DNA from: Beijerinckiaceae bacterium
Lineage (GTDB): Bacteria > Pseudomonadota > Alphaproteobacteria > Rhizobiales > Beijerinckiaceae
DNA length: 64,000 bases
NCBI GenBank assembly: GCA_947453205.1
Contig: CANGFT010000005.1
Coordinates: 1-64,000, forward strand
Direction of reading: 5' to 3'
How positions within the stretch are numbered: the first letter of the stretch is position 1; every line of letters starts with the position of its first letter. Below are positions 6,091 through 64,000 of the stretch, piece by piece. The position numbers were made by a program, and so were the translations under genes. The notes beneath the pieces are model-generated. The model was not told the origin of the DNA, did not search any database, and was given only the letters and a program-made list of their open reading frames with translations.

Positions 6091-6173
6091 GTCTACCTCC
6101 CCATCGGGCTTCACCCGTTTTCATTATGGACAGGACGCACTCTTTGCGGAGCGCGCCCTGCGATGCCCTCAGG

Positions 6174-7802: not shown

Positions 7803-7831
7803 TCCATTCACTCCCTTGTTCTGATTTCCTG

Positions 7832-9079: not shown

Positions 9080-9293
9080 GTTCGTCCCCCCGTGACGCAA
9101 AGAGGCGGCAGGCGTCATCGCCGCTCGAACGGCGGGCGCCATTCCGGCGCATGCGCAGCTTGTCGCTGATCTCTGCGGACCGTTCCTCCCATGCCCGTTG
9201 GATCCCTGAGTCTTTCGCTCAGCGAACAGGCCTGAGGAAAATTATCGCAGCAGGTCAGCACTGTCGACTGCCGCGCAGCATTTATTTGAAAGA

Positions 9294-48952: not shown

Positions 48953-49048
48953 CGGGAGGTTGGCGGTGGACGCACCACTCGCCAACCGGGTCAGGTCCGG
49001 AAGGAAGCAGCCCTAACGAGACCGGGCGGGTCTCTGTCCAGCCTCCCA
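48953..49048 (+). ncRNA. ffs: Signal recognition particle RNA (small, 4.5S type)
   Basis: The hallmark GGTCAGGTCCGGAAGG with AAGCAGCCCTAA lies at about 48989-49016. This is the asymmetric loop and GGAA tetraloop that bind Ffh. Ends pair as GGGAGGTTGG with CCAGCCTCCC, giving one long hairpin of about 96 bases. It precedes dnaX, the usual bacterial order. The exact ends are set from the pairing. Confidence 0.93.
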
Positions 49049-49099
49049 CCCTTCACGCCGCGTCCCCCCATGGGGCCGGCACTGGAATGGCGCCCCATC

Positions 49100-50998
49100 A
49101 TGACCGATGAGCGACAGGACGACGGGGTTGAAGAACCCTCGCTGGGCCTCGACCTTGGCATGGCGCCCGCCACGCCTGCATCCCCCGCCGCAACCCAGCC
49201 GCCCGCCGCCTATCGGGTGCTGGCGCGCAAATATCGGCCATCGAGCTTCGAGGATCTGATCGGCCAGGAGGCCATGGTCAGGACGCTCTCGAACGCCTTC
49301 GAGCTGAACCGCATCCATCAGGCCTATCTGCTGACCGGCGTGCGCGGGGTGGGCAAGACCACGACCGCGCGCATTCTGGCCCGCGCCTTCAACTACGAAC
49401 GCCCCGCCCGCGACGGCCAGCCCGCCGTCACCAGGCCGACGATCCATATGCCCGAGCTTGGCGCCCATTGTCAGGCGATCATCGAAAGCCGGCATATCGA
49501 TGTGATCGAAATGGACGCCGCCTCGCACACCGGCGTCGACGATGTGCGCGAGATCATCGAGAACGCGCGCTTCCGCCCGGTGATGGCGCGCACCAAGGTC
49601 TATATCATCGACGAAGTGCACATGCTCTCCAAGAACGCCTTCAACGCCCTGTTGAAGACGCTGGAGGAGCCGCCGGAGCATGTGAAGTTCCTCTTCGCCA
49701 CCACCGAGATCGAGAAGGTGCCGATCACCGTGCGCTCGCGCTGCCAGCGCTTTGATCTGCGCCGCATCGAGCCCGATGTGCTCATCAACCATCTCGCGGG
49801 CATCTGCGCGAAGGAGAGCGTGGCCATCGAGCGCGACGCCCTGGCCTTGATCGCCCGCGCCGCCGAAGGCTCGGTGCGCGACGCCTTGTCGATTCTCGAT
49901 CAGGCCATCGCCCATGGCTCGGGCGGCGGCGCGATCAGCGCGATGGATCTGCGCGACATGCTGGGCGTCGCCGACCGCACCCGCATCATCGACCTCTTCG
50001 AAGGCGTGATGAAGGGCGATGCGGCGGCTGCGCTGGGCATTCTCAGGGAACAATATGACATGGGCGCCGACCCCGCCCATGTGCTGACCGGCCTCGCCGA
50101 ATTCGTACATTTCGTCACCAAGCTGAAGCTCGCCCCAAGCGAAAGGCCCGACGGCTCCGTGAGCCCCGAGGAGGGCGCGCGCGGCGCGGCTTTCGCAGCC
50201 GCTCTCTCCATTCAGGTCCTCACCCGCGCCTGGCAGCTCCTCACCAAGGGCCTTCAGGACATGCGCGACGCGCCGCGTCCCCTCGCCGCCGCCGACATGG
50301 TGCTGGTGCGCCTCGCCTATGCCGCGGATCTGCCGACGCCCGACGAGGTTCTGCGCAAATTGAAGGACGCCCCGCAAGGCGGCGCCGATGGCGGCCCCTA
50401 CCGTCAGGCGACCTCATCCGGCGGCGGCGGCGGAGCCTCCGCCATGGCCGTTGCGCGCACCATGAGCGTGGCGGCGAGCGCCCCCGCGCCCCAGCACAGG
50501 CCGACCGCGCAAGCCAGCGCCCAGCCGCAGGCGCGCGTGGAGCTGGCGCGTTTTGAAGACCTCGTCGCCCTCGCCCACGCCAACCGAGACATTCAGCTGA
50601 AGACCGCCCTCGAGCGGGATGTGAAGCTCGTGCGGTTCGAGCGCGGCGCCATCGAATTCTCGCTCGCCCCCGGCGCCTCCCCGCAGCTCGCCCAGACCCT
50701 GATGCGCCGCCTGCAGGAATGGACGGGCATCCGCTGGATGGTCGCCGTATCGCGCGAAGAGGGCGCGGCGACCCTCAAAGAACAGGCCGACGCGCGGGCT
50801 GAAGAGAAAATGACGGGCCTGCGCGCCCTGCCCCTCGTGCGCAAGGCGCTCGAAACCTTCCCCGGCGCCCAGATCGTCGCGATCCGCGGCCCCGAGGCGG
50901 AGCCCGAACCCGTGACCGCGGCCATCGCGCCCGAAACCGCCGATGGCGGCGACGAAATCGGCTACGCCGACCAGATCTACACCGAAGACGATTTATGA
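49100..50998 (+). CDS. dnaX: DNA polymerase III subunits gamma/tau
   Basis: This is the 632-residue clamp-loader ATPase. Walker A is GVRGVGKTTTARILA, Walker B is VYIIDEVHMLS and the arginine-finger motif is TVRSRCQRF. Domain III and an Ala/Pro linker lead to a tau C-terminus. The zinc module is degenerate: only one Cys (GAHCQAI) remains where E. coli has four. I see no A-rich slippery site, so a gamma product by frameshift is not evident. The ATG at 49100 starts MTDERQDDG; an upstream in-frame ATG at 49070 is less likely. Confidence 0.95.
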   Translation: MTDERQDDGVEEPSLGLDLGMAPATPASPAATQPPAAYRVLARKYRPSSFEDLIGQEAMVRTLSNAFELNRIHQAYLLTGVRGVGKTTTARILARAFNYERPARDGQPAVTRPTIHMPELGAHCQAIIESRHIDVIEMDAASHTGVDDVREIIENARFRPVMARTKVYIIDEVHMLSKNAFNALLKTLEEPPEHVKFLFATTEIEKVPITVRSRCQRFDLRRIEPDVLINHLAGICAKESVAIERDALALIARAAEGSVRDALSILDQAIAHGSGGGAISAMDLRDMLGVADRTRIIDLFEGVMKGDAAAALGILREQYDMGADPAHVLTGLAEFVHFVTKLKLAPSERPDGSVSPEEGARGAAFAAALSIQVLTRAWQLLTKGLQDMRDAPRPLAAADMVLVRLAYAADLPTPDEVLRKLKDAPQGGADGGPYRQATSSGGGGGASAMAVARTMSVAASAPAPQHRPTAQASAQPQARVELARFEDLVALAHANRDIQLKTALERDVKLVRFERGAIEFSLAPGASPQLAQTLMRRLQEWTGIRWMVAVSREEGAATLKEQADARAEEKMTGLRALPLVRKALETFPGAQIVAIRGPEAEPEPVTAAIAPETADGGDEIGYADQIYTEDDL

Positions 50999-51011
50999 GG
51001 CCCGGACTCCA

Positions 51012-51335
51012 ATGAAAGACATCATGGGATTGATGAAGCAGGCGCAGGCCATGCAGGCGCGCGTGCAGGACATTCAGGCCGAGCTGGAGCGCATGGAGGT
51101 CACGGGCCAGTCGGGCGGCGGCCTCGTGCAGGTGACGCTCACCGCCAAGGGCGCCATGCGCGGCCTCGCCATCGACGCCTCGCTGCTGAAGGCGGATGAA
51201 AAGGAGATCGTCGAGGATCTCATCGTCACCGCCCATGAAGACGCGCGCAAGAAAGGCGAGCGCCTCGTGGAGGAGAAGATGAAGGCCGTCACCGCAGGCC
51301 TGCCCCTGCCCCCCGGCATGAAGCTTCCCTTCTGA
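51012..51335 (+). CDS. YbaB/EbfC nucleoid-associated protein
   Basis: This 107-residue DNA-binding protein begins [22 protein letters not shown], the typical N-terminal coiled coil, followed by [18 protein letters not shown] and PPGMKLPF at the end. It lies between dnaX and recR, as in most bacteria. Its stop shares a base with the recR start. The proposed role is nucleoid organisation near recombination genes. Confidence 0.94.
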
Positions 51336-51940
51336 TGGCTGAACGCGTCGCCGGTCCCGAGATCGAGCGTCTGATCCAGCTGCTCGCGAAACTGCCGGGA
51401 CTGGGCCCGCGCTCGGCGCGGCGGGCGGCGCTGCATCTGATCCGCAAGCGCGAGGAATTGCTGGGCCCGCTGGCGAGCGCCATGCAGGTGGCGAAGGAGC
51501 GCATCCTCACCTGCACGGCGTGCGGCAATGTGGACACCAGCGACCCCTGCACCGTCTGCGCCGATCCGCGCCGCGACGCCTCGCTGCTTGTGGTGGTGGA
51601 GACCGTCGCCGATCTGTGGGCGCTGGAGCGGGCCGCGGCCCTGCGCGCGCGCTACCATGTGCTTGGCGGCACGCTCTCGCCGCTCGATGGCGTGGGCCCG
51701 AAGGACATCAACATCGATTCGCTCGTGTCGCGCGTGGCCGAAGGCGGGGTGAGCGAAATCATCCTCGCGGTGAACGCCACCGTCGATGGCCAGACCACCG
51801 CCCATTACATCACGGACATTCTGTCCCACCTCGATGTGAAGATCACCCGCCTCGCCCATGGCGTGCCCGTGGGCGGCGAACTCGATTATCTCGATGAAGG
51901 AACCCTGTCGGCGGCCATCCGTTCGCGCACGGATTTCTAG
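51335..51940 (+). CDS. recR: Recombination mediator protein RecR
   Basis: This 201-residue protein works with RecFO to load RecA on gapped DNA. It has an N-terminal HhH ([20 protein letters not shown]), a C4 zinc finger (CTACG and CTVC), a Toprim domain ([15 protein letters not shown]) and a C-terminal [19 protein letters not shown]. The start overlaps the ybaB stop (TGATG), indicating coupling. Confidence 0.96.
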
Positions 51941-51967
51941 ACCCGCCTTTTCAGATGCGAGGACAAA

Positions 51968-52285
51968 ATGGCGAAGACGCTTTCCGTCACGCTTCCCCAT
52001 TCGCTGGGCGCCGCTGAAGCCAAGCGCCGCATCTCCAGCGGCGTCGACAGCCTGCGCCAGCAATATGCGTCGCAGATTTCGCAGGCGGAGATCGTCTGGC
52101 AGGACGATCACGCCGAGATCAAGGTCGGCGCCCTGGGGCAAACCATTCACGCGCGCATCGATGTTGGGGAGGACCAGCTACATATCGAGGTCGATCTGCC
52201 CTGGCTCCTGCAGAAACTCGCGCAGCCCGTGCAGGCCTTTTTGACCCGCAAGGGCGAAGACACGCTGCGCATCGGCAAGAGCTGA
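51968..52285 (+). CDS. Polyhydroxyalkanoic-acid-system family protein
   Basis: This 105-residue protein resembles the PHA granule-regulation family: MAKTLSVTLPHSLGAAEAKRRI, DDHAEIKVGALGQTIHARIDV and HIEVDLPWLLQKLAQP. The family is small and poorly characterised; some members sit near PHA genes, but none are here. It follows recR by 27 bases with GAGGA upstream and may be in the same operon. It converges on the SDR gene with a two-base gap. Confidence 0.78.
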   Translation: MAKTLSVTLPHSLGAAEAKRRISSGVDSLRQQYASQISQAEIVWQDDHAEIKVGALGQTIHARIDVGEDQLHIEVDLPWLLQKLAQPVQAFLTRKGEDTLRIGKS

Positions 52286-52287
52286 TC

Positions 52288-53004
52288 TCACCAGGGGATT
52301 GGCAAGCCCAGGTGATCGAAAAAGCCGCCGGACTGGTCGGCGGTCAGGCCATCCATCACGCCGAGCAGGCGCGCGGCGGAGGTTTGCGGCGTCTGCACCT
52401 CAAGGCCATCCTTGGTGAAGGGATCGGACAGTTGCGTGCGCACCGTGCCCGGATGCAATGCGACGCAGAGCGCCGCCGGCCTGCGCCGCTTCAACTCGAT
52501 GGCGCCCGTGCGCACGAACTGGTTCAACGCGGCCTTGGAGGCGCGATAGCCATACCAGCCGCCCAGATGATTGTCGCCGATGCTGCCCACCCGCGCCGAG
52601 AGCGTGGCGAAGACAGCCTTGCCCGAGGGCGCGAGCGCGGGCAGGACATGCTTCATCAGCAAGGCGGGGCCGATCGCGTTGAGGGCGAAGGCGCGCGCGA
52701 GATTGGCGGCGTCAAGATCGCGCAGGGCCTTCTCGGGCGCCTGCGCCTCGTCATGCAGAAAGCCGGTCGCGTCGATGACGAGGCGCAATGCGCCGCGTTG
52801 GGCGACCGAAGCGACGGCCTGCGCTATGCTGGCTTCGTCCGTCAGATCAAACGCGGGATCGCTGCGTCGGCTCAAAGCGGCGACATGCGCAAAACCGCCG
52901 CCCGCGCGCAGGTTTTCGACAAGGGCCGCGCCGACCCCGCCGCTGGCGCCGAAGACGACGGCGACGCCGCCTTGCGGAAATGAGGAGAACTCAACCGCGC
53001 TCAT
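52288..53004 (-). CDS. SDR-family NAD(P)-dependent oxidoreductase
   Basis: This 238-residue classical-type SDR has the Rossmann motif VVFGASGGVGAAL (about 15-27), a catalytic YRASK segment in WYGYRASKAALNQF and GTVRTQLSDPF. It resembles C-factor-like reductases. Its start overlaps the DCC gene stop (ATGA), so it is last of a three-gene unit. The substrate is unknown. Confidence 0.85.
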   Translation of the reverse strand: MSAVEFSSFPQGGVAVVFGASGGVGAALVENLRAGGGFAHVAALSRRSDPAFDLTDEASIAQAVASVAQRGALRLVIDATGFLHDEAQAPEKALRDLDAANLARAFALNAIGPALLMKHVLPALAPSGKAVFATLSARVGSIGDNHLGGWYGYRASKAALNQFVRTGAIELKRRRPAALCVALHPGTVRTQLSDPFTKDGLEVQTPQTSAARLLGVMDGLTADQSGGFFDHLGLPIPW

Positions 53005-53378
53005 GATTTCAACTTTCCAAAAGCCTTGGACAGCCAGGGCCGGACGGGAAGGAAAAGCCGATAAGCAAGCTCCAGAAGCAGGGTCACGCCCGGCAGGCCT
53101 GCAAGGCGCGCGGCCCAGCGCCAGCGCGGCAGCGCGCCCCAGATCTCGACAAATGCCTCAGCGCCGGAGGCCACACGGCCATCGCTCCGGCGCACATGAA
53201 AGCGCGCAAGCGCCTGTTCGCGCGTGAGGCCGGGGGGCAGGTCGCTTGTGGGCGTCGAGACATCCAGAAAACAGATCGCGCCCGCGCCCTCCTGCGCGCT
53301 GTAATGGCCGATCTCGGCCCGGCACAGCGGACAGGCGCCGTCGTAATAGACCGTCAGCTTCGGGTCAGGCTGCGACAT
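53001..53378 (-). CDS. DCC-family (DUF393) thiol-disulfide oxidoreductase-like protein
   Basis: This 125-residue protein has the family motif YYDGACPLCRAEI near the N-terminus, with the CPLC pair, and a C-terminal hydrophobic segment ending FLPVRPWLSKAFGKL. Function in this family is poorly defined; a redox role is assumed from the Cys pair. It overlaps the FAD enzyme gene by 14 bases and the SDR by four, so the three are translated together. Confidence 0.85.
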   Translation of the reverse strand: MSQPDPKLTVYYDGACPLCRAEIGHYSAQEGAGAICFLDVSTPTSDLPPGLTREQALARFHVRRSDGRVASGAEAFVEIWGALPRWRWAARLAGLPGVTLLLELAYRLFLPVRPWLSKAFGKLKS

Positions 53379-54309
53379 GCACGCCCCATGACTCCAGAAC
53401 CGCCCGCGCCATGGCCTCGCCGCTGTCGAAGGCGGCCTCGACGCGCGGGCCGAGGCAATAGTCGCCACAGGCGCCAAGGCCCGCCTGCGCATCCCAGAAA
53501 CAAGACGCGCCCGCCGCCTGCTCCACCAGCGCATAACGCCAGCGATGCGCGGCGGCGTAGATGGGCGCCGACGGCGCGCCAATGAGATCAAGCGCATAGC
53601 GCTTCAGCTTTTCGAGGATCGCCTCCGGCGTTTCATCGAGATGGGCGCGGGACCATTCGGGCCCGGCATGGACCACGAAGGTCTTCGCGGAATCATTGCG
53701 GCCGGGCTTGGAGGAGTTGCGGGCGATCCAGGCGATGGGGCCTGATTCAGGCCGCAGATGACCGCCTTCGAAGGCGACCGGCCCGTCGAAGGCCAGCATC
53801 AAGGCGAGACAAGGGGCGTAACGCACCGACGCCAGAGCGGGGAATGACGCCCCGCCGGCCGCAAGAATCGGCGCGGCCTGCGGGGCGGGCGTCGCCACAA
53901 TCACAGCGTCGAAGCCGCCATGGGAGGCCTCGCCCGCAACAAGGCTCCAGCCCGAAGATTCGCGGCGCAGGCTTGTGACTTCAAACCCCATGATCGTCTC
54001 AAAGCCCTGCGCCATGGCGCGGGCGGGCGCGGTCATGCCGGGGCTGCCCACGATGGCCTCGCCGAACCAATGGGCGGCGACGCCGCCTGAACGCCATTCC
54101 TCGACAAGCGCAGCGAAACGCGGGCCGCGCGCGGTGAAATATTGCGCGCCATGATCGAAGGTGAGGTCGCCCACGCGGCGCGTCGACATGCGCCCGCCAA
54201 GGCCGCGGCTCTTGTCAAAGATGACGCAGGACGCGCCGGAGCCGCGCAGCACCCGCGCCGCCGCGAGCCCAGCCATTCCAGACCCGATGATCGCCACCCG
54301 CTTCGTCAT
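53365..54309 (-). CDS. NAD(P)/FAD-dependent oxidoreductase (renalase/amine-oxidase-like)
   Basis: This 314-residue flavoprotein has the dinucleotide-binding motif VAIIGSGMAGLAAARVL at the N-terminus, KSRGLGGRMSTRR for FAD, and TFDHGAQYFTARGPRF, typical of bacterial renalase-like proteins. The C-terminal segment includes GLGACGDYCLGPRVEAAFDSG, where FAD contacts end. It heads the overlapping DCC-SDR operon. The substrate is unknown. Confidence 0.85.
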   Translation of the reverse strand: MTKRVAIIGSGMAGLAAARVLRGSGASCVIFDKSRGLGGRMSTRRVGDLTFDHGAQYFTARGPRFAALVEEWRSGGVAAHWFGEAIVGSPGMTAPARAMAQGFETIMGFEVTSLRRESSGWSLVAGEASHGGFDAVIVATPAPQAAPILAAGGASFPALASVRYAPCLALMLAFDGPVAFEGGHLRPESGPIAWIARNSSKPGRNDSAKTFVVHAGPEWSRAHLDETPEAILEKLKRYALDLIGAPSAPIYAAAHRWRYALVEQAAGASCFWDAQAGLGACGDYCLGPRVEAAFDSGEAMARAVLESWGVHVAA

Positions 54310-54348
54310 GTCTCGCCCCTGTGAACGAGGGTGATACGAGGCGCGGCG

Positions 54349-55056
54349 TCAGCCGGATTGGACGGCCCTGTAGCGGGCGAAGCCATCGGCGCGCAGCTGG
54401 CAGGCGGGGCAGAGGCCGCAGCCATGGCCCCACGCATGCAGCGCCCCGCGCTCGCCCACATAGCAGGTGTGGGTCTCGCGCAGGATCAGATCGACCAGCG
54501 CCGCTCCGCCCATCGCTTCGGCGAGGCTCCAGGTCTGCGCCTTGTCGATCCACATGAGCGGGGTCTCCAGAATGAAGCACTGGGCCATGCCAAGGTTGAG
54601 CGCGACCTGCATGGCCTTGATGGCGTCGTCGCGGCAGTCGGGATAGCCGGAAAAATCCGTCTCGCACATGCCGCCGACGAGATGACGGAGCCCGCGCCGA
54701 TAGGCGAGCGCGGCCGCGAAGGCGAGGAAGATGAGGTTGCGGCCGGGCACGAAGGTGTTGGGCAGTCCATTCTCGGCCATGCCGATCGCGACATCCTGCG
54801 TGAGCGCGCATTGGGAGACCTGCGCGATGGCGCCGATCTCGATCGTGTGATCCTCCCCGAGCCGATCGGCCCAGCGCGGCTTCATGCGGGCGAGCGCGCG
54901 GCGCAGCGTTTCGCGACATTCAAGCTCGACGCGATGGCGCTGCCCATAGTCGAAGCCGAGGGTCTCGACATGGTCGAAGCGCTCCAGCGCCCAGGCCAGG
55001 CAGGTCGTGGAATCCTGCCCACCGGAAAACAGAACGAGCGCGCCTGACTGCTTCAT
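54349..55056 (-). CDS. queC: 7-cyano-7-deazaguanine synthase
   Basis: This 235-residue enzyme makes preQ0, the precursor of queuosine. It has the PP-loop [17 protein letters not shown] and [12 protein letters not shown], and the C-terminal zinc site CYVGERG...[15 protein letters not shown] chose the ATG at 55056 with GAGGCAGG upstream; the frame begins at 55092. Other queuosine genes are not adjacent. It is divergent from the exported ThDP enzyme gene across about 230 bases. Confidence 0.95.
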
Positions 55057-55284
55057 GCCTGCCTCGATAAAAAAGCAAAGATTGCCGCGCAACGCCTCTT
55101 GTCGAACAGCGCGGCCCGTATATCATCCCCTTCAAGGTTTCGTGAAGAAGCCGTGATGGGAGGACAGGTTTCAGCCGCAATCCAGGGCCCTCGAGCGCGC
55201 AGCCGCGCCGCGCGCCTTCATGTTCATCGCGGCTCCAGGCCTTCTGAACGCTGACGCCCAACATAGACAAGAGGAGCAGGCTCC

Positions 55285-57252
55285 ATGACAGACCTGAACG
55301 GCAAGGACGGCTTTGATCGCCGCAAATTCCTGACCGGCGCAGCCGTGGCGGGCGTGACCCCGGCCTTGACGCAGGCCAGCGCGCCCGCGCAGGCGCAAGT
55401 CGCCGCCCCCCGCCACACGCCCTCGGCCCTGCCGCCGACGATGAAGACCATCGCCGCCGAAACCCAGCCGCCGGAGGAGATGTCGCGCATCGGCGGCAAG
55501 CCCGGCTCGGATTTCATGATCGACGTCATCAAGACGCTCGACATCAAATACGCCCCGTCGAACTGCGCCTCGAGCTTCCGCGCGCTGCATGAGTCCATGA
55601 TCAACTACGGGGAGAACAAGTCCCCCGAATATATCAGCTGCATGCACGAAGAATCGGGCGTCGGCATGGCGCATGGATATTTCAAGGCGACCGGCAAGAT
55701 GCTGCTCACCATGGTGCATGGCACCGTGGGCCTGCAGCACGCCACCATGGCCATCTACAACGCTTATTGCGACCGCGTGCCGCTCATCATCATCGGCGGC
55801 AATGATCTTGACGCCGCCACGCGCCCGCCGGGCGTGCCGACGTTCCATGCGGCGCAGGACATCAACGCCATCGTGCGCGACTACACCAAATGGGACGATA
55901 CGCCCGTCACGCTGCAGCATTACGCGCAGTCCATGGTGCGCGCCTACAAAATCGCGATGACCCCGCCCTATGGCCCCGTCGCGATCTCGCTCGACGCAGG
56001 GCTTCAGCAAGAGCCCATCCACGAGCATGGTTCGAAGCTCTACATTCCCCGCTATGTGCCGACGTCACCCCCGCAGGGCGACAGCAATGCGGTGCGCGAG
56101 GCCGCGCGGCTTCTGGTCGCTGCGGACAATCCGGTCATCGTCGCGGATCGCTGCGCGCGCACGCCCAATGGAGCGAAGCTGCTCGTGGAGCTCGCCGAAC
56201 TCCTGCAATGCCCGGTCGTCGACCAGGGCAACCGCATGAACTTCCCCAACACCCATTATCTCTCGCGTCCCGCAGGCGTCATCGCGGGCGCGGATGTGGT
56301 CATGGGCCTCGAGCTCTCGGACTTCTGGGGCACGGTGAACAGCTTCACCGACAACGGCGAGAATGGCGGCGTCGGCGTCAACGCCTCCCGCGTGAAGCCG
56401 CAGACCAAGATGATCAGCATCACCTCGGTCGATCTGCTCACCAAGTCGAATTACCAGGACTTCCAGCGCTTCCAGACCGTCGATGTGCATATGGCGGCGG
56501 ATGCGGAGACGACGCTGCCTTCGCTCATCGAAGCCGTGAAATCCGCCATCACCAAGGATCGCGCCAACGCCATCGCCGAGCGCACGGACAAGGCGAAGAA
56601 AGCCTATGCCGACATCCGCGCCCGGGACATGCAGGCGGCGGTTGTGGGCTGGGATTCGAGCCCCATCAGCACCGCGCGCCTGTGCATGGAGCTCTATGCC
56701 CAGATCAAGGATCTCGACTGGTCGCTCGTCTCTTCGGCGGGCGATGTGAGCAACTGGCCCGCACGCCTGTGGTCCATCGAGAAGCATCACCAGTGGCTCG
56801 GTAAATCCGGCGGCTATGGGGTGGGCTACGGCGCGCCCGCCAGCGTCGGCGCGGCCCTCGCCAACAAGGAGCTTGGCCGCTTCTCGGTCTCGATCCAGTC
56901 CGACGGCGACCTCATGTTCGCGCCAGGCGTGTTGTGGACCGCCGCCAAGCACAAGATCCCCCTGCTGTCGGTCATGCACAACAACCGCGCCTGGCATCAG
57001 GAGGTCATGCACGTTCAGCGCCTGTCGAACTTCCGCAACCGCAAGGCCAATTACGGCGGCGACATGGGCCCCATCGGCACCTGCATCGAAAATCCCGACA
57101 TCGAATATCACAAGCTCGCGGAATCCATGGGCTGGTGGGCGAAGGGCCCGATCAAGGATCCTGCGCAGCTCGGCCCCGCGCTCAAGGAGGCCATCGCCGT
57201 CGTGAAATCCGGCCAGCCCGCCCTTCTCAATGTTTGGACCCAGCCGCGCTGA
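55285..57252 (+). CDS. Tat-exported thiamine-pyrophosphate-dependent enzyme
   Basis: This is a 655-residue ThDP enzyme related to acetolactate synthase. The first 40 residues are a Tat signal (DRRKFLTGAAVAGVTPALT, cleavage near QAQVAA). Catalytic Glu122 is in HEESGVGMAHGYFKATGK. The ThDP motif runs DGDL (540-543) to NN (566-567). Export of a ThDP enzyme is unusual because the cofactor must be loaded before Tat transport, which carries folded proteins. It is 13 bases upstream of a secreted cytochrome c gene. A periplasmic decarboxylase or oxidase giving electrons to the cytochrome is inferred. GAGGAG precedes the ATG. Confidence 0.87.
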   Translation: MTDLNGKDGFDRRKFLTGAAVAGVTPALTQASAPAQAQVAAPRHTPSALPPTMKTIAAETQPPEEMSRIGGKPGSDFMIDVIKTLDIKYAPSNCASSFRALHESMINYGENKSPEYISCMHEESGVGMAHGYFKATGKMLLTMVHGTVGLQHATMAIYNAYCDRVPLIIIGGNDLDAATRPPGVPTFHAAQDINAIVRDYTKWDDTPVTLQHYAQSMVRAYKIAMTPPYGPVAISLDAGLQQEPIHEHGSKLYIPRYVPTSPPQGDSNAVREAARLLVAADNPVIVADRCARTPNGAKLLVELAELLQCPVVDQGNRMNFPNTHYLSRPAGVIAGADVVMGLELSDFWGTVNSFTDNGENGGVGVNASRVKPQTKMISITSVDLLTKSNYQDFQRFQTVDVHMAADAETTLPSLIEAVKSAITKDRANAIAERTDKAKKAYADIRARDMQAAVVGWDSSPISTARLCMELYAQIKDLDWSLVSSAGDVSNWPARLWSIEKHHQWLGKSGGYGVGYGAPASVGAALANKELGRFSVSIQSDGDLMFAPGVLWTAAKHKIPLLSVMHNNRAWHQEVMHVQRLSNFRNRKANYGGDMGPIGTCIENPDIEYHKLAESMGWWAKGPIKDPAQLGPALKEAIAVVKSGQPALLNVWTQPR

Positions 57253-57265
57253 GGGAGACGATTCG

Positions 57266-57607
57266 ATGCGCAATCTGAAATTCATCACCACCATCGCAGC
57301 GACGCTCCTGCTCTCCTCCACCGGCGCCTTCGCGGCTTCAGCGGAGAAGGGCCGCGTCGCCTTCGGCAAGAACGGCTGCTGGCAATGCCATGGCTGGGAA
57401 GGCCAGGGCGGAAACGCCGGGCCAAGGCTGGCGCGCACCCAACTTCCGCTTGAAGCCCTGACCGCCTTCGTACGCGGCACGAATGGGCCCATGCCGCCAT
57501 TTTCAAAGAAGGTGCTGTCCGACGAAGATCTCGCGGATATCTACGCCTTCATCTCGGCCCAGCCCGCGCCGCCCGACCCCAAGACGATTCCGCTTCTCGC
57601 GCGCTGA
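57266..57607 (+). CDS. Periplasmic class I cytochrome c
   Basis: This is a 113-residue monoheme cytochrome. The signal peptide ends TGAFA, the heme site is CWQCH (38-42) and the axial Met is probably in NGPMPPFS. A C-terminal helix DEDLADIYAFISAQP completes the fold. It follows the exported ThDP gene by 13 bases with GGGAG upstream, and a terminator closes the pair. It is the likely electron acceptor of that enzyme; this is inferred from the operon alone. Confidence 0.9.
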   Translation: MRNLKFITTIAATLLLSSTGAFAASAEKGRVAFGKNGCWQCHGWEGQGGNAGPRLARTQLPLEALTAFVRGTNGPMPPFSKKVLSDEDLADIYAFISAQPAPPDPKTIPLLAR

Positions 57608-57615
57608 TGAACAGG

Positions 57616-57645
57616 CGCCTCCACCTTCGGGCTGGAGGCGTTTTG
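57616..57645 (+). terminator. Rho-independent terminator after the cytochrome c gene
   Basis: CGCCTCCA and TGGAGGCG (57616-57640) form a perfect 8-base stem followed by TTTTGT. It lies nine bases after the stop codon and separates the ThDP-cytochrome pair from the next operon. Confidence 0.82.
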
Positions 57646-57675
57646 TCGCCCGCCCCGTGCTTGCGCTTGAAGCGT

Positions 57676-57709
57676 GCATGAGTCATTCATGCCGCAGATC
57701 GCGAATGAC
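57676..57709. promoter_or_regulatory. Overlapping inverted repeats upstream of the Fe/2OG oxygenase gene
   Basis: GCATGA-N5-TCATGC (57676-57692) overlaps a second repeat, GTCATTC-N14-GAATGAC (57682-57709). Both are perfect. They lie 45-77 bases before the oxygenase start and could be operator half-sites for a dimeric regulator. No regulator gene is adjacent. Confidence 0.45.
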
Positions 57710-57752
57710 AGGCGCATAGCGCGCAGCCTGTCGCATACGGGGAGTTTACGCC

Positions 57753-58805
57753 ATGCAGACAGTCATCGACAGCCCCGCAGATTGGCGCGGCGCGGATGTG
57801 GCGAAGCGCACCGACTGGATCCATGAGTTCACCCCGCAGGAAATCGCCGAAATCGACGCCGCCACGCGCCATGCGCTCCAGAGCGGCAAGACCATCGAGA
57901 CGCTGACGCGCGACGATTTCCCCCTGCCCCTGGTCTCGCAACGGCTCGCTCATGCGCGAACCTTTCTCGAAGAGGGGCTCGGGATCTATCAGTTCCGGGG
58001 CATCAATATCGAAGGCTATGACAAGGCCACGCTGAGGCTGATGTATTGGGGCATCGGCAAGCACATGGGCACGGCTGTCTCACAGAGCAAGGATGGCGAT
58101 CTCCTCGGCGATGTGCGCGATGTCGGTGTCGACGTGAACAGTCCGCAGGGCCGTGGCTATAAATCGAACCAGCGCCTCACCTTCCACACCGACACCTGCG
58201 ACGTCGTGGGCCTGATGGTTCTGCGCGTCGCCAAGGCCGGCGGCCTCAGCCTGCTGGCGAGCTCCCACGCCATCCATAACCATCTCGCGCGCACAAGGCC
58301 CGATCTGCTCGAAGTCCTCCACCAGCCCTTCACCTGGAGCTGGCAAACGCAGGAGCCCCCGGGCGGAACGCCCTATTACCAGCAGCCGCTCTTCTCCACG
58401 AAAGACGGCAAGCTCTCCTGCCGCTATGTGCGCGTGCACATCACCTCGGGCCAGCGCTTCCCCGAAGTTCCCCGCCTCACGCCCCTGCAGATCGAGGCGC
58501 TCGACGCCTTCGACAAACTGGCCTGGAGCGAGGACTTCCACTTCTCCTTCATGTTCAAGCCCGGCGATCTGCAATTCGTGAACAACCACGTCGCGCTGCA
58601 TTCGCGCACAGCTTTTGAGGATTACGAGGAGACCGACCGCAGGCGCCATCTGCTGCGCATGTGGCTCTCCGTGCCTAATAGCCGCCCCCTGTCCGACGCG
58701 CTCTCGACGATCTATCAGGACCGCAAGGGCGGCGAGGTGCGCGGCGGCTTCCCCTCGCGCACGGGGAAATATATCTACGAATCCACCGGCGCCCTGTCGG
58801 ATTGA
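57753..58805 (+). CDS. TauD/TfdA-family Fe(II)/2-oxoglutarate-dependent dioxygenase
   Basis: This 350-residue oxygenase has the iron ligands His-x-Asp in TFHTDTCDVVG (about 145) and a distal His in NNHVALHSRTAFED. The 2-oxoglutarate Arg is probably in RRRHLLRMWLS near residue 300. The segment KAGGLSLLASSHAIHN is typical of the gamma-butyrobetaine/TauD superfamily. It is the first gene of a unit that continues through the dehydrogenase and binding protein. The substrate is unknown. Confidence 0.87.
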   Translation: MQTVIDSPADWRGADVAKRTDWIHEFTPQEIAEIDAATRHALQSGKTIETLTRDDFPLPLVSQRLAHARTFLEEGLGIYQFRGINIEGYDKATLRLMYWGIGKHMGTAVSQSKDGDLLGDVRDVGVDVNSPQGRGYKSNQRLTFHTDTCDVVGLMVLRVAKAGGLSLLASSHAIHNHLARTRPDLLEVLHQPFTWSWQTQEPPGGTPYYQQPLFSTKDGKLSCRYVRVHITSGQRFPEVPRLTPLQIEALDAFDKLAWSEDFHFSFMFKPGDLQFVNNHVALHSRTAFEDYEETDRRRHLLRMWLSVPNSRPLSDALSTIYQDRKGGEVRGGFPSRTGKYIYESTGALSD

Positions 58806-58813
58806 GCGGGCCG

Positions 58814-59755
58814 ATGTTGCGCATCGCCATCCTCGACGATCACCAGTCCGTCGCCCTGAGCATGACCGATTGGTCGCGCATCGGGCAGGACGCCGAGATC
58901 GTCAGCTTCGACCGCCACCTCAGCGAGGCGGAGGCCGCCGTGGAGCTCGTCGACTTCGACGTGCTCTGCATCATGCGCGAGCGCATGGCCCTGCCGCGCA
59001 GCCTCATCGCCGTCCTGCCGCGCCTGAAGCTGATCGCCGTCACGGGATCGCATACGCAGGTGATCGATATGGAGGCGGCGCGCGAGCGCGGCATTCCCGT
59101 CACGCTGACCTCGCCGCGCGCGTCCCATTCGGCGGCGGAGCTGACCTGGGCGCTGGTGCTGGCGCTGGCCCGCCAGATCACGGTCGAAGACCGCAACATG
59201 CGCGAAGGCCGCTGGCAGACGAGCGTCGGCTTCCGGCTTGAGGGCCGCACGCTGGGCCTCATCGGCCTTGGCACGCTGGGCGCCCGCGTCGCCCGCTATG
59301 GGCAGGCCTTCGACATGCCGGTCATCGCCTGGAGCGCCAATCTCGATCCGCAGCGCGCCCGCGACCTTGGCGTCGAGCCCGTGTCGAAGGACGAGCTGCT
59401 CGCCCGCGCCGACGTCGTCAGCATCCACCTGAAGCTGGGCCCGCGCAGCCGCGGCCTCATCGGCGCGAAAGAACTCGCCAGCATGAAGCGCAGCGCCGTG
59501 CTGGTGAACACATCGCGCGGTCCGATCGTGGATCAGGATGCGCTCGCGGCCGCCCTGCGCGATGGCGTGATCGCAGGCGCCGCACTCGACGTCTTCGAGC
59601 CCGAACCGCTGCCCGCCGACCATCCCGCGCGCGCGCTGCCCAACACCGTGCTCACGCCGCATATCGGCTTCGTGACGGAGGAATCCTATCGCGAATTCTT
59701 CGCCCGCGTCGTGGATTCCATCATCGAATGGCGCCAGAATGGCGCTCACGCCTGA
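58814..59755 (+). CDS. D-2-hydroxyacid dehydrogenase (NAD-dependent)
   Basis: This 313-residue member of the phosphoglycerate/D-lactate dehydrogenase family has the Rossmann motif GLIGLGTLGARVARYG, the VNTSRGPIVDQDAL segment, DVFEPEPLP with the catalytic Glu nearby, and the catalytic His in LTPHIGFVT. The ATG at 58814 lies eight bases after the oxygenase stop; an in-frame TTG at 58802 overlaps that stop. It probably interconverts a 2-oxoacid and a D-2-hydroxyacid in the same pathway. Confidence 0.88.
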   Translation: MLRIAILDDHQSVALSMTDWSRIGQDAEIVSFDRHLSEAEAAVELVDFDVLCIMRERMALPRSLIAVLPRLKLIAVTGSHTQVIDMEAARERGIPVTLTSPRASHSAAELTWALVLALARQITVEDRNMREGRWQTSVGFRLEGRTLGLIGLGTLGARVARYGQAFDMPVIAWSANLDPQRARDLGVEPVSKDELLARADVVSIHLKLGPRSRGLIGAKELASMKRSAVLVNTSRGPIVDQDALAAALRDGVIAGAALDVFEPEPLPADHPARALPNTVLTPHIGFVTEESYREFFARVVDSIIEWRQNGAHA

Positions 59756-59780
59756 TCAACGAAAAACGAGAGGGACCGCC

Positions 59781-60794
59781 ATGAGAAAGATCCACGCAGC
59801 CGCGCTTCTGCTGACGGGCCTGTTCGCATCAGCCTCCGCGCAGGCGCAGGCCCCGGCGCAGGATTTCTACCGGGGCAAGACCATCACCTTCATCATCGGC
59901 TATGGGCCAGGCGGGGGCGTCGACACCGCCTCGCGCCTCATCATCCGCCATCTCTTCCGCTTCATTCCCGGCAAGCCGGACATCACGCCCCAGAACATGG
60001 AAGGCGCCGGCGGCGTCATCTCCGGCAATTATCTGGGCGCACGCGCCTCGCGAGATGGCCTGACCATCGGCCTGCCCGGCCGCAGCTGGTTCGTGGAGGG
60101 CATCGTGAAAAGCCCCGGCGTGACCTTCGATCCCACGAAGTTCAGCTTCATCGGCAGCACCGGCGTCAACAACACGATGCTCTATCTGCGCGGCGACCTC
60201 AACATCCGCACGCCCGAAGACCTCAAGAACCATCCGCAGAAGATCCCCGCCGCCGGCATCGGCGCAGGCACGCCGACGGTGACCATTCCGAACATGCTGT
60301 CGGAATATGGCTACCAGCTGCGCACGGTGCTCGGCTACAATTCCTCAGCGCGCTCGCTGCTGGCGCTGGAGCAGGGCGAGGTCGGCGCCTATTACACGCC
60401 CGAGGACAGCTTCACCAAACGCCCCGACCTTATCGAGAAGAAGGTGGTCGTGCCCCTGCTGCAATCCAAACGGATCGTTCCGGGCCTCACGGTCGTGGCC
60501 GACATTGTGCCGAAGAAAGACCATGCGGTGCTTGGCCTCTTCAACGCCTATGACGACACCGGCCTGATGGTCGTCGGCCCGCCCGGCATCCCCTCGGATC
60601 GCCTCGAAATCCTGCGCAAGGCCTTCATCGAGATGTGCAACGACGCGGATTTCCGCAAGGACGCGGCCACCGCCGGCGAGCCGGTCGGCGCCCCCATTCC
60701 TGCGCCTGAGCTTGAAAAGGTCATGGCGAACCTCGCCGCCACCGCCACGCCTGAGGTGGTGAGCGAATATCGCCGCCTCGGACAGGCCAAATAA
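59781..60794 (+). CDS. Bug/TctC-family periplasmic substrate-binding protein
   Basis: The fourth binding protein of this family has 337 residues. The signal peptide ends ASAQAQ, then DFYRGKTITFIIGYGPGGGVD, FIPGKPDITPQNMEGAGG, ASRDGLTIG and LALEQGEVGAYY. The ATG at 59781 has GAGAGGGA upstream. It lies 25 bases after the dehydrogenase gene, so import of a carboxylate and its processing are likely linked. No TctA/TctB genes are near. The region after VTIPNMLSEYGYQL diverges from the other three paralogues. Confidence 0.9.
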   Translation: MRKIHAAALLLTGLFASASAQAQAPAQDFYRGKTITFIIGYGPGGGVDTASRLIIRHLFRFIPGKPDITPQNMEGAGGVISGNYLGARASRDGLTIGLPGRSWFVEGIVKSPGVTFDPTKFSFIGSTGVNNTMLYLRGDLNIRTPEDLKNHPQKIPAAGIGAGTPTVTIPNMLSEYGYQLRTVLGYNSSARSLLALEQGEVGAYYTPEDSFTKRPDLIEKKVVVPLLQSKRIVPGLTVVADIVPKKDHAVLGLFNAYDDTGLMVVGPPGIPSDRLEILRKAFIEMCNDADFRKDAATAGEPVGAPIPAPELEKVMANLAATATPEVVSEYRRLGQAK

Positions 60795-60866
60795 AGCGGC
60801 GCCTTTCTGAGCGCGCTGTTTTCGCGTAGACTTCGGGGAGATCGCGCCCCGGCCAAGGAGCAGCCC

Positions 60867-61901
60867 ATGCATATCATCGACTCCCATTTTCATTGGTGGC
60901 CCCGGTCGGTCTTCGAGACCCTGTGCAAGCGCACGGAGACGCCCTACGCCAAGCCCAATGAGAAGGGCTGCTACACCTGCGTGCTGCAGGACGGCGCAGA
61001 CTATACGATGAACAGCTGGCCGGACTGGTTCGACATCGATGAGCAGTTCGAACATATGGACAAGCTCGGCCACCGCGTCGACGCCGTCGGCTCCATCGGC
61101 CCCTTCTCCGTCTATTTCTCCGCCCTGCCGAAGGAGGAAGGCCGCGACCTCGCCATCCAGTGGAACGAGGAAATGGCCTGGGCGCAGCGGCGCTATCCCG
61201 GCCGCTTCTGGGGCAGCGCGGCGATCCCCTTCCAGGATGAAAAAATCGCCATGGATGTGCTGGAGGACGCCATCGGCCGCCTCGGCCTCATGGGCGTGAA
61301 CCTGCCCGGCTCCATCGGCTCAGACCCGCGCATCGACGCCGAGCGGATGCAGGCATTCTACGCCCGCTGCGCGCAGCTTGACCTGCCCGTGTTCATGCAT
61401 CCGACCGACGCGATCTTCAACCACATGCTCGACGGGTACAACGGCGCCCTTTTCCTGTCGCTCGGCCGGGTGGTCGAGGTGAGCGTGGCGGCCATGCGGC
61501 TTGTGCTCTCGGGGACGCTGGAGCGTCACCCGAATCTCAAGCTCATCATGTCCCACACCGGCGGCGCGCTGCCCTACCAGTCCGGCCGCATGGACAAGAA
61601 CACCAAGGCGGCCAAATTGCCGCGTCCAGCCAGCGACTATCTCAAGCAGATGTATACGGACACGGTGAGCCCCCATTCGGCGGGCATGAAGTTCGCCATC
61701 GAATATTACGGCATCGACCGTGTGATGTATGGCACGGACTATCCCTGCTGGGATCCGGCGGCCTGTCTGAAATTGATCGACGAGCTGAACCTGTCGGACG
61801 CGGACAAGCAGAAGCTGTTCTACGACAACGCCCGGCGCATCCTGAACCTGAGGGATCCCGCGCCCGCCAAGGCTGCGCCGGAGATGGCTTTCGCCAAGTA
61901 A
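60867..61901 (+). CDS. Amidohydrolase-family protein (ACMSD-like)
   Basis: This 344-residue metal enzyme of the aminocarboxymuconate-semialdehyde decarboxylase type (Amidohydro_2) has HxH in IIDSHFHWW (residues 7 and 9), His in VFMHPTD and MSHTGGALPYQ, and the metal Asp in YGTDYPCWDP. Relatives decarboxylate or hydrate ring-cleavage products. AAGGAG lies at ideal spacing. It is last in the rightward unit, and a hairpin follows. Confidence 0.88.
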   Translation: MHIIDSHFHWWPRSVFETLCKRTETPYAKPNEKGCYTCVLQDGADYTMNSWPDWFDIDEQFEHMDKLGHRVDAVGSIGPFSVYFSALPKEEGRDLAIQWNEEMAWAQRRYPGRFWGSAAIPFQDEKIAMDVLEDAIGRLGLMGVNLPGSIGSDPRIDAERMQAFYARCAQLDLPVFMHPTDAIFNHMLDGYNGALFLSLGRVVEVSVAAMRLVLSGTLERHPNLKLIMSHTGGALPYQSGRMDKNTKAAKLPRPASDYLKQMYTDTVSPHSAGMKFAIEYYGIDRVMYGTDYPCWDPAACLKLIDELNLSDADKQKLFYDNARRILNLRDPAPAKAAPEMAFAK

Positions 61902-61913
61902 GCGCTGATGGGC

Positions 61914-61948
61914 GATGGCCCGCGTGAGGCGGGCCATCAAGCCTTTCG
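61914..61948. terminator. Hairpin between converging genes (bidirectional terminator candidate)
   Basis: GATGGCCCGC and GCGGGCCATC (61914-61938) form a perfect 10-base stem with a five-base loop. On the plus strand AAGCCTTTC follows. It lies between the amidohydrolase and the converging M24-like gene and could serve both. The T-runs are short. Confidence 0.6.
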
Positions 61949-61949
61949 G

Positions 61950-62990
61950 TCAAAGCCCGATCATGCGGGCGCCGATCCACCGGCGCCCCTGAATCTTCAG
62001 CTCGACATCGAGCACGAAGGGCGCCGCCGTTGAAAGGCCCGCCGCGCTTTGCGCCATATTCGCGACCGGCGCCAGCGGATAGGAGCCGCGCGGCTGTTCG
62101 GCGACCCAGTTCACGACTTCACCTGACGATGCGAAGGCGCGCAAGACGGCGGCGCCCAGGGCTTCGCCCGGTTGTTGCGCAAAATCCATCAGGACCGCGT
62201 GGGCGGCGTCGAAGGATTGCTGCACGCCCGCGTCGCGCGCGAAGCTGCGCACATGGCGCGTCCAAGCGCCCTTGTAGGCGAGCGAAACGCGGGCCGCATA
62301 TGTGTCGCCCAGAGGCCCCATGGAATCGGTGCGCACGAAGGCGCCGCTCGCGCTGAGATCGCAGGCGACGAGGGTGAAGCATTCCTCGGCGCCGCCAAGG
62401 CGAGCGACGGATTCGGCGGGGGCGATGAAATCGCGCGCATGGAGGCTGGCGACGTCGACGGCGCCGCAGGCGGCCTGCGCCAGCGCATCGGCCTTCGTCA
62501 GCAGGAGCCGCTCCACCGCATCAGCCTCGCCCCGCACACGCGCGAAGGCCTGCGTCACATCCACCAGCTCCACGCCGGGCGACGCAGCCAAAATCGCCTG
62601 CGCATGGCCCGCAGGAAAGTCGTCAAGCTCAAGAACGCCGATGCGCTTTGCGCCATCACGGGCGATATGTTCTCCGATGAAGGCGGAGGGACGCGGCGTG
62701 GTCGTGACCTCGCCAGCGGGCATGACCGAGCTGATCCATTCGGCCACGCGCTTTGAAAGGGCGGTGGCGAAGACCATCTCGCCCTGTGCGGGCGCATAGA
62801 GCAGACCTTCATTCCAATAAGGCGTGAAGCCGGTGAGCCACCAGACCGAACCGCCGCGCGCGATGTTGGTGTAGGCGACGAAGACGTCGACGCCCTCGCG
62901 CGCGAGCTCGGCGCGCAGGCGCGCGAGGCGATCGGCAAGAGCGGAAGCGGGAACCTCTGCGGGATCCCAGGCCATCAAACCACGACGCAT
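61950..62990 (-). CDS. M24-fold (creatinase/Xaa-Pro peptidase-like) protein, catalytic residues not evident
   Basis: This is a 346-residue protein. The N-terminal creatinase domain (about 1-140) has FVAYTNIARGGSVWWLTGFTPYWNEG. The C-terminal half resembles the pita-bread fold (SLAYKGAWTRHVRSFARD) but lacks the metal ligands Asp/Asp/His/Glu/Glu and the GHGxG motif of active M24 peptidases. The ATG at 62990 follows AGGACG. It lies seven bases after another M24-like gene, so the two may form a heteromer. A metal-free hydrolase or a pseudoenzyme are both possible. Confidence 0.78.
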   Translation of the reverse strand: MRRGLMAWDPAEVPASALADRLARLRAELAREGVDVFVAYTNIARGGSVWWLTGFTPYWNEGLLYAPAQGEMVFATALSKRVAEWISSVMPAGEVTTTPRPSAFIGEHIARDGAKRIGVLELDDFPAGHAQAILAASPGVELVDVTQAFARVRGEADAVERLLLTKADALAQAACGAVDVASLHARDFIAPAESVARLGGAEECFTLVACDLSASGAFVRTDSMGPLGDTYAARVSLAYKGAWTRHVRSFARDAGVQQSFDAAHAVLMDFAQQPGEALGAAVLRAFASSGEVVNWVAEQPRGSYPLAPVANMAQSAAGLSTAAPFVLDVELKIQGRRWIGARMIGL

Positions 62991-62997
62991 GGCGTCC

Positions 62998-64000
62998 TCA
63001 CTGCAAGGGAACGGAGAAGAGTTCGCGCTTCGTGCCGCAGAGCAGCTCATGCCCGCCCTCGCGCACCACAAGCGAATCGCCCAGCACCAGATAGCCCACC
63101 GCGGGATGATAGGTGTTGGGGTGGACGATGAGCGTCATGCCCGCCTGAAGCGTGATTTTCACATCCTCCAGAATGGCTGGCTTCTGGTCGGGGAAGAGCC
63201 CCATGCCATGGCCGCGCACGCGCGTATATTCAGACGTCACATATTCGCCAAGGCCATATTTGCGGAAGACGTCGTTCTCCGCCTTCGCCACATCAGCCGC
63301 CGTGACGCCTGCGCGCACCGTGGCGATGCCCGCCTCCATGGCCTCAAGATAGACCGCGAAAGCCTGCCGCTGCGCTTCGCTCGGCTCGCCCACCACGAGC
63401 GTGCGGCAGATCTGCGCATAATAGCCATCAAAGCAGGGCGTCAGCTCCGTCGTCACCATGTCCCCCTTCTTGAGGATCTTGCCGCCGGGCGGCGCCATGC
63501 CCCGCACCTCCTGACCGCCGACGCCGACGATCATGAAATTCTCAGGCACGCCATGGGCGCGGAAGAAGGACTCCATCTCCGCGACGAGCTCATAGTCCTT
63601 GCGGCCCGGACGCGCCGCCTGCCGGAAGATGGCGTAGCCCTGATCGGCGAGCGCGGCGGCCTTGCGCACGGCGGCGATCTCGACCTCCATCTTGGTCATG
63701 AGCAGATGTTCGACGATCTTAGCGCCATCGGCGACGCGCAGATCCTTCTCGCCATGCAGCAGACCATAGGGCAGCAGATGATAGGGGGCTGCCGCGATGT
63801 TGTGATTGCCCGCGCGCGACAACTGCCGCTTCGCCTCCTGCACGAGGGCGGGGGCGAAGATGGTTTCACAAACAGTCTCACAGCGCGCCCGCTCGCATTC
63901 GGCGGGATCGTCGAGGATCAGGGTGATGGACCCGTCCTCGCGCACGAGCGCTATGCCCTGTCCCTCCTGAATGCCGAAATCCGTCGCATAGCGCAGATGA
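62998..64000 (-). CDS. M24-fold (creatinase/Xaa-Pro peptidase-like) protein, N-terminus beyond the window
   Basis: This open frame continues off the right edge. The visible part includes LRYATDFGIQ, a linker, and the M24 domain with MTKMEVEIAAVRKAAALAD, VTTELTPCFDGYYAQICRT, RVRGHGMGL and VHPNTYHPAVGYLVLGDSL. The His of GHGMG is kept, but the canonical Asp, Asp, Glu and Glu ligands appear as Glu, Gln, His and a non-acidic residue. So it is probably not a normal metallo-aminopeptidase. Creatinase, which needs no metal, is one model. A GTG at 63945 is an internal codon, not the start. Confidence 0.82.
   Translation of the reverse strand, partial: HLRYATDFGIQEGQGIALVREDGSITLILDDPAECERARCETVCETIFAPALVQEAKRQLSRAGNHNIAAAPYHLLPYGLLHGEKDLRVADGAKIVEHLLMTKMEVEIAAVRKAAALADQGYAIFRQAARPGRKDYELVAEMESFFRAHGVPENFMIVGVGGQEVRGMAPPGGKILKKGDMVTTELTPCFDGYYAQICRTLVVGEPSEAQRQAFAVYLEAMEAGIATVRAGVTAADVAKAENDVFRKYGLGEYVTSEYTRVRGHGMGLFPDQKPAILEDVKITLQAGMTLIVHPNTYHPAVGYLVLGDSLVVREGGHELLCGTKRELFSVPLQ

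Follow-up and report, generated by a model that had tools for sequence, protein, structure and literature searches.

We analysed a stretch of 64,000 nucleotides from a Beijerinckiaceae bacterium (contig CANGFT010000005.1, positions 1 to 64,000; hereafter the window), in which a gene for a thiamine diphosphate (ThDP) enzyme with a predicted twin-arginine translocation (Tat) signal is followed closely by a gene for a small cytochrome c. The two open reading frames (ORFs) and the short gap between them lie exactly where an initial annotation of the window had placed them, and the catalytic glutamate is residue 122, as it had said. The pair has the following features:

55285..57252, plus strand: ThDP enzyme gene, 655 amino acids, with TPP_enzyme_N, _M and _C domains (AlphaFold model, mean predicted local distance difference test [pLDDT] 82.6)
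55285..55395, plus strand: predicted Tat signal peptide, with D-R-R-K-F-L at residues 11-16 and, read by eye, probable cleavage near Ala37
55648..55650, plus strand: catalytic Glu122, invariant in a 46-row alignment (A1) and in register with the conserved benzoylformate decarboxylase Glu
56899..56985, plus strand: ThDP/Mg binding motif SDG-(24)-NN, residues 539-567
57253..57265, plus strand: intergenic gap GGGAGACGATTCG, 13 bp, in which GGGAG, read by eye, is a candidate ribosome-binding site
57266..57607, plus strand: monohaem class I cytochrome c, 113 amino acids (model mean pLDDT 81.5)
residues ~1-23 of the cytochrome, plus strand: putative N-terminal Sec-type signal peptide, read from the sequence by eye
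57377..57391, plus strand: haem-binding motif CWQCH of the cytochrome, residues 38-42
57491..57493, plus strand: probable axial haem ligand Met76 (Met-Pro), the Met being kept in related cytochromes
57587..57598, plus strand: I-P-L-L tail at the cytochrome C-terminus, conserved in relatives and perhaps used in docking

The Tat motif and the cytochrome gene occur together

Export by the Tat route, which the initial annotation had proposed, gains support from the window protein and from its relatives alike. The enzyme N-terminus, MTDLNGKDGFDRRKFLTGAAVAG, scores above the cut-off of the NCBIfam Tat model TIGR01409 (18.7 versus 16.7 bits) and below that of the Pfam Tat model PF10518 (20.1 versus 22.7). 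Homologues were drawn from named genome contigs, 61 genomes around the window, 81 genomes around genome G061, and plasmids; from 138 homologous ORFs we kept 118 rows, leaving out those with a query span below 480 residues or with a catalytic part identical to that of another row. An N-terminal twin-arginine motif is present in 97 of the 118 rows, and at E <= 0.01 TIGR01409 matches 69 and TIGR02811 matches 70 of these 97 N-termini. In the 18 signal-less rows, the N-termini align as ThDP-domain starts, and neither Tat model is among the best 25 of the 46 families that they match. When seven N-termini were scanned singly, six passed the TIGR01409 cut-off, the exception being a second ThDP gene at locus L076 described below, and one passed that of PF10518.

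Presence of the motif goes with presence of a cytochrome gene. Among the 97 motif-bearing rows, 91 are followed on the same strand by a haem motif (CxxCH) at most 320 bp downstream, three have a convergent cytochrome gene within 700 bp (L107, L115 and L156), one runs off its contig, and two have no cytochrome in range: L091, and L116, where a two-haem gene has its CxxCH motifs at 739 and 1000 bp. The convergent cytochrome genes of L107, L115 and L156 show that the partner has been kept despite a changed gene orientation. A search for the same pair in other genomes had been set beforehand as a test, and the pair is indeed conserved, with an adjoining cytochrome for 94 of the 97 twin-arginine rows. 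The 21 rows without the motif comprise 17 without a cytochrome, one that is cut short and three with a cytochrome (L064, L081 and L087); these last three start at contig ends, and their N-termini are lost.

A FastTree phylogeny of the 118 rows gathers 99 of them in a single clade (support 99) that excludes the signal-less rows. Within this main clade the motif is found in 96 rows, the other three beginning at contig ends, and the cytochrome is on the same strand in 93 and convergent in three. Outside the clade, by contrast, there are 18 signal-less rows, of which 17 lack a cytochrome and one is cut short.

The contig sample consists of 80 loci kept from 166 confirmed ones (183 matched), and within it the twin arginine is present in 77 contigs and a same-strand CxxCH within 450 bp in 74. 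A CxxCH within 300 bp downstream was found for 77 of the 81 ThDP-cluster genes whose downstream sequence extends for 300 bp or more, as compared to 3 of 378 other ORFs (250 amino acids or longer) at the same loci, part of which, coming from a simple ORF caller, may not be genes. Since the 80 contigs were picked for likeness to a Tat-bearing query, they are a biased sample, and the signal-less relatives make a fairer standard of comparison. The pairing of ThDP enzyme and cytochrome is not chance. From this conservation, the predicted Tat signal and the assignment of a dedicated cytochrome partner are both strongly supported.

The enzyme belongs to the wider ThDP superfamily

All three ThDP domains of the enzyme score above their Pfam cut-offs (TPP_enzyme_N, 60.9 bits against 26.8; TPP_enzyme_M, 38.2 against 30.4; TPP_enzyme_C, 77 against 21.9). 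Beyond these, only POR_N matches, below its cut-off, and the Pfam scan of the enzyme gave no amine oxidase domain (flavin amine oxidoreductase superfamily). The initial annotation had assigned the protein to the acetolactate synthase family, which proves too narrow: among the best 25 of 45 NCBIfam families matched, no full-length enzyme model, and thus no acetolactate synthase model, reaches its cut-off. The top model, PRK08327, gives 222.7 of the 456 bits needed, and TIGR00118 (biosynthetic acetolactate synthase large subunit; 130.3 bits, cut-off 538.35) and PRK07092 (benzoylformate decarboxylase; 151.4 bits, cut-off 493) fall short as well. The enzyme has a single PHROGs match, to a family of unknown function, and the cytochrome has none.

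Glu122, His145, Asp540, G541, Asn566 and Asn567 are invariant in alignment A1, three rows of which are signal-less. The superfamily motif is GDG-(24-27)-NN. The initial annotation had described the ThDP motif as intact; its Asp and both Asn are kept, but its first Gly is a Ser, so that it reads SDG-(24)-NN rather than the textbook form. Variation at this letter is common among the 92 of 118 rows that fit the search pattern (S 38, G 28, N 16, A 5, T 5), the other 26 rows lying outside it. Fifteen positions set the 99-row clade (>=95%) apart from 11 signal-less relatives (<=10%), and they include Q572, E573, M575 and Q578, directly after the ThDP motif; therefore the edge of the active site differs between the two groups.

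Benzoylformate decarboxylases rank first in a profile search of solved proteins. The AlphaFold model of the enzyme is matched in Foldseek by HKA synthase, glyoxylate carboligase and acetohydroxyacid synthase, and also by benzaldehyde lyase, 2-hydroxyacyl-CoA lyase and the benzoylformate decarboxylase 4q9d; the matches thus include both flavin-binding and flavin-free enzymes. Benzoylformate decarboxylase (PDB 1bfd, 4q9d) has the same three-domain ThDP fold and is the best sequence match among solved structures, although the structural alignment of 4q9d with the window enzyme has only ~20% identity. Glu122 and His145 align with Glu47 and His70 of the decarboxylase. To our knowledge, known benzoylformate decarboxylases have neither a Tat signal nor a cytochrome partner.

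The partner is a class I cytochrome c

The window cytochrome scores above the Pfam cut-offs of Cytochrome_CBB3 and Cytochrom_C, and with a CxxCH motif near its N-terminus, a distal Met and a c-type fold it is a class I cytochrome c. We compared 76 same-strand cytochromes, located by CxxCH, from 82 loci. One haem motif is present in 72 of them and two in four, and the axial-ligand Met is found in 75, the remaining one being gapped; this Met is also invariant in a 35-row alignment. The C-terminal I-P-L-L is conserved across the 76 proteins (I 65, P 62, L 60, L 74), and in the 35-row alignment I108 is kept in at least 90% and L111 is invariant, which makes this tail a possible docking element.

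In Foldseek the first three ranks of the cytochrome model are held by the cytochrome subunit of p-cresol methylhydroxylase (best E 0.056, a weak match), with c552, c554 and c6 at later ranks and SorU at rank 30, none better than E 0.05. By sequence, the p-cresol methylhydroxylase cytochrome is matched at E 0.0049 and is outscored by a hypothetical cytochrome, a Thioalkalivibrio cytochrome and bc1 subunits. The p-cresol methylhydroxylase cytochrome and SorU are small class I monohaem cytochromes that each serve one periplasmic dehydrogenase, a flavoenzyme in the first case and a molybdoenzyme in the second; the window cytochrome resembles them by fold, with weak scores. Pairwise distances among enzymes and among their cytochromes are correlated (Spearman 0.71 over 76 pairs, with a maximum of 0.21 in 500 shuffles), a correlation that shared ancestry alone can explain and that does not prove contact.

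Distribution and origin of the pair

Close to the window, the Tat type is common. Within the 61-genome set, as we read the matches, a Tat-type copy is present in 25 of the 37 genomes that share the window's genus (its own included), and the best copy of every carrier (25/25) has the twin arginine and a CxxCH within 450 bp; the other 24 genomes, which come from further families of the order, gave no such copy. An order-wide sample had the Tat type in one of 397 genomes, the window's own (E <= 1e-120), and in a phylum-wide sample three of 398 genomes match at E <= 1e-60, namely the window's own and two of signal-less type. The window genome encodes TatC and two cytochrome c assembly genes, and it carries a second main-clade pair (G000:C30) at 51% identity, with the Tat motif RRGFL and the haem motif CYQCH.

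By name, the 80 contigs belong to Pseudomonadota (60), Acidobacteriota (18), Actinomycetota (1) and Fidelibacterota (1); these are mostly titles of metagenome-assembled genomes (MAGs), and single odd names may be misplaced. Carriers not labelled as MAGs include Limnohabitans sp. 15K (L054) and Roseiarcaceae bacterium H3SJ34-1 (L075). The pair is also found on a plasmid of Caballeronia zhejiangensis (46.8%), where it is annotated as a thiamine pyrophosphate-binding protein beside a c-type cytochrome, and on a plasmid of Novosphingobium sp. KACC 22771 (42.3%). A MAG contig titled Bordetella parapertussis (L079) carries the pair as well, and here the organism name may be misassigned. The Tat-type pair is patchy and rare, and is found in Pseudomonadota and Acidobacteriota. 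Such a patchy spread would fit horizontal transfer of a two-gene unit.

Two changes of Tat state are needed on the tree when the three truncated rows are left out. The second change is a gene on a long branch at L076, where the following pair was found:

L076:3714-5636 and L076:5641-5937: second ThDP gene, with the twin-arginine motif RRGFL, and its monohaem cytochrome c

This ThDP gene is 26% identical and stands directly upstream of a main-clade pair on the same contig, and its N-terminus fails the TIGR01409 cut-off. At E <= 1e-60 its lineage was found, among 398 genomes, in its own genome only. A separate origin of this gene is likely but not proved, its export and its origin being less sure because TIGR01409 is not passed and the branch is long. 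The arrangement of Tat signal and cytochrome may therefore have arisen at least twice, in the main clade and in the L076 lineage.

Surroundings of the pair

In the window, the pair is flanked by these features:

54349-55092, minus strand: upstream neighbour, read as queC, in the opposite direction to the pair
57624..57638, plus strand: weak terminator-like hairpin with a 6-bp stem, in a site count not above chance
from 57753: downstream neighbour, a TauD-like dioxygenase gene

The initial annotation had a terminator closing the pair, but this hairpin is a weak one, with two terminator-like sites found in the region as compared to 1.6 expected from shuffled sequence. No riboswitch or other RNA was found within 49000-64000 at gathering thresholds.

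Clustering the genes of 83 loci by family gave several recurring neighbours, namely TctC/Bug receptors (19 loci), Amidohydro_2 (10), UbiD (7), FAD (flavin adenine dinucleotide) monooxygenase (6), UbiX-type flavoprotein (5) and TauD (4). A cluster read as molybdenum hydroxylase is near the pair in 6 of the 83 loci, and a pyrroloquinoline quinone (PQQ) dehydrogenase cluster in 4. Some genes next to the pair in Comamonadaceae are read as RNase G and MsbA, so that the UbiD and UbiX genes of these loci need not be catabolic.

Elsewhere in the window, a further ThDP gene lies at 6174-8222 on the minus strand (region 5083-9142), with no Tat motif seen; the genes on either side are read as encoding a TctC/Bug-like receptor and an oxygenase of Rieske type, and the region may be a catabolic cluster. 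At 61950-63945, also on the minus strand, a Creatinase_N ORF (61950-63071) overlaps a Peptidase_M24 ORF (62998-63945). A creatinase-like protein is normally a single chain, and the two ORFs may be separate genes or one split gene.

A proposed periplasmic ThDP oxidoreductase and its rivals

We think it probable that the pair is a two-component periplasmic ThDP dehydrogenase or oxidoreductase, most likely for a 2-oxoacid, that passes electrons to its dedicated cytochrome c. Comparison among homologues gives good support to the predicted export and the partnership, and it also supports an intact ThDP site and haem site. We infer the substrate class, the oxidation, the path and direction of the electrons, and the absence of flavin or another cofactor; a 2-oxoacid substrate and electron transfer from ThDP to the cytochrome would best account for the pair. 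According to this scheme, the ThDP enzyme would fold and take up Mg-ThDP in the cytoplasm before Tat export, while the cytochrome would be exported by Sec and have its haem attached outside. ThDP would then attack a carbonyl substrate, most likely a 2-oxoacid and possibly one of aryl-glyoxylate or arylpyruvate type, with loss of CO2; the partner cytochrome would oxidise the electron-rich ThDP intermediate in two one-electron steps, yielding a carboxylic acid, and would hand the electrons onward to the respiratory chain. More tentatively, we propose a narrower form of this reading, in which the pair would be a periplasmic 2-oxoacid:cytochrome c oxidoreductase whose haem directly oxidises the ThDP carbanion without a flavin or iron-sulfur cluster, and would represent an undescribed extracytoplasmic class. 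Such an enzyme would allow cells to draw electrons from carbon compounds that they do not import.

A number of observations weigh against this proposal: firstly, 28 of the 97 motif-bearing N-termini have no TIGR01409 match at E <= 0.01; secondly, no cytochrome was found in the locus of the Tat member L091, and a ThDP-cytochrome fusion was sought in the 118 rows, of which none (0/118) has a CxxCH in the ThDP reading frame; thirdly, the enzyme position aligned, in a low-confidence stretch, to the active-site His281 of benzoylformate decarboxylase is not a His, and therefore the decarboxylase chemistry may differ; fourthly, a substrate call from neighbouring genes was rejected, no neighbour family being constant over the 83 loci; and finally, we know of no ThDP enzyme that passes electrons directly to haem. 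The electron carriers of known ThDP enzymes are FAD, iron-sulfur clusters or lipoamide.

In one rival reading, a periplasmic ThDP enzyme would also bind FAD, as pyruvate oxidase does, and electrons would run from ThDP through FAD to cytochrome c. Acetohydroxyacid synthase and glyoxylate carboligase, both among the Foldseek matches, bind FAD, as does a further match, entered as CDH and taken to be cyclohexane-1,2-dione hydrolase; and flavoenzymes exported by Tat with a cytochrome partner have been described (PMC12224317). However, sequence comparison places benzoylformate decarboxylase and benzaldehyde lyase nearest among solved proteins. Neither carries a flavin, and we regard an FAD-dependent enzyme as unlikely.

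Those same relatives are non-oxidative, which would suit a periplasmic lyase or decarboxylase, like benzaldehyde lyase or benzoylformate decarboxylase, with an aldehyde as product; the cytochrome would then serve a separate dehydrogenase. The alignment of His145 with a conserved His of benzoylformate decarboxylase agrees with this, as do the dehydrogenase-type genes (PQQ, molybdenum hydroxylase-like) near some loci; but none of these genes occurs at more than 6 of the 83 loci, against a cytochrome at nearly all, and the signal-less relatives have no cytochrome, so that we consider this rival quite improbable. In a last rival, the twin-arginine motif would be a chance one, the enzyme would be a normal cytoplasmic relative of acetolactate synthase, and the cytochrome gene next to it would have no link to it. 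This is strongly disfavoured and most improbable, for although arginine pairs arise by chance and the Tat-model shortfalls given above would fit, the motif is lost in the main clade only where rows are cut at contig ends, most motif-bearing N-termini match TIGR01409 or TIGR02811, neither of which is among the best 25 of 46 families for the signal-less ones, and a cytochrome adjoins nearly all of the motif-bearing rows.

Comparison with known systems

In textbooks, ThDP enzymes work in the cytoplasm. Pyruvate oxidase PoxB and pyruvate:ferredoxin oxidoreductase resemble the proposed system in coupling ThDP oxidation of a 2-oxoacid to electron transport, but they are cytoplasmic and use FAD/quinone or iron-sulfur acceptors, with no dedicated cytochrome c. 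If the two-component reading is true, the respiratory repertoire would gain periplasmic carbon oxidation by ThDP, carried out by an exported clade wired to its own cytochrome, and ThDP chemistry would gain a new natural electron acceptor. A role would also be given to a pair now annotated merely as 'thiamine pyrophosphate-binding protein' and 'c-type cytochrome'. Many environmental bacteria carry the pair, a hint that electrons from carbon compounds may enter respiration by a new way.

Among the open-access literature matches listed, titles and abstract openings hold nothing on a Tat-exported ThDP enzyme or on this pair; a protein catalogue names a PoxB-like protein, with no cytochrome link in the portion seen (PMC12502724). 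A Tat enzyme with its own cytochrome is known for flavoenzymes, and a ThDP enzyme in such a role appears new. In Gluconacetobacter diazotrophicus, a Tat L-amino acid oxidase stands with a cytochrome c gene, a link that the source proposes rather than proves (PMC5053998). For flavin amine oxidoreductases, a Tat signal and an adjacent CytC gene have been used to predict cytochrome-using dehydrogenases, a prediction that kinetic data are said to bear out in the same report as above (PMC12224317). NicA2/Pnao with CycN is built alike: a Tat-signal enzyme, an adjacent small cytochrome c with a Sec signal, and relatives that lack both (PMC12224317). The window enzyme differs in being a ThDP protein, of another fold and chemistry. 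The best explanation by analogy is thus that the window pair is arranged like NicA2 and CycN, but would work with ThDP chemistry.

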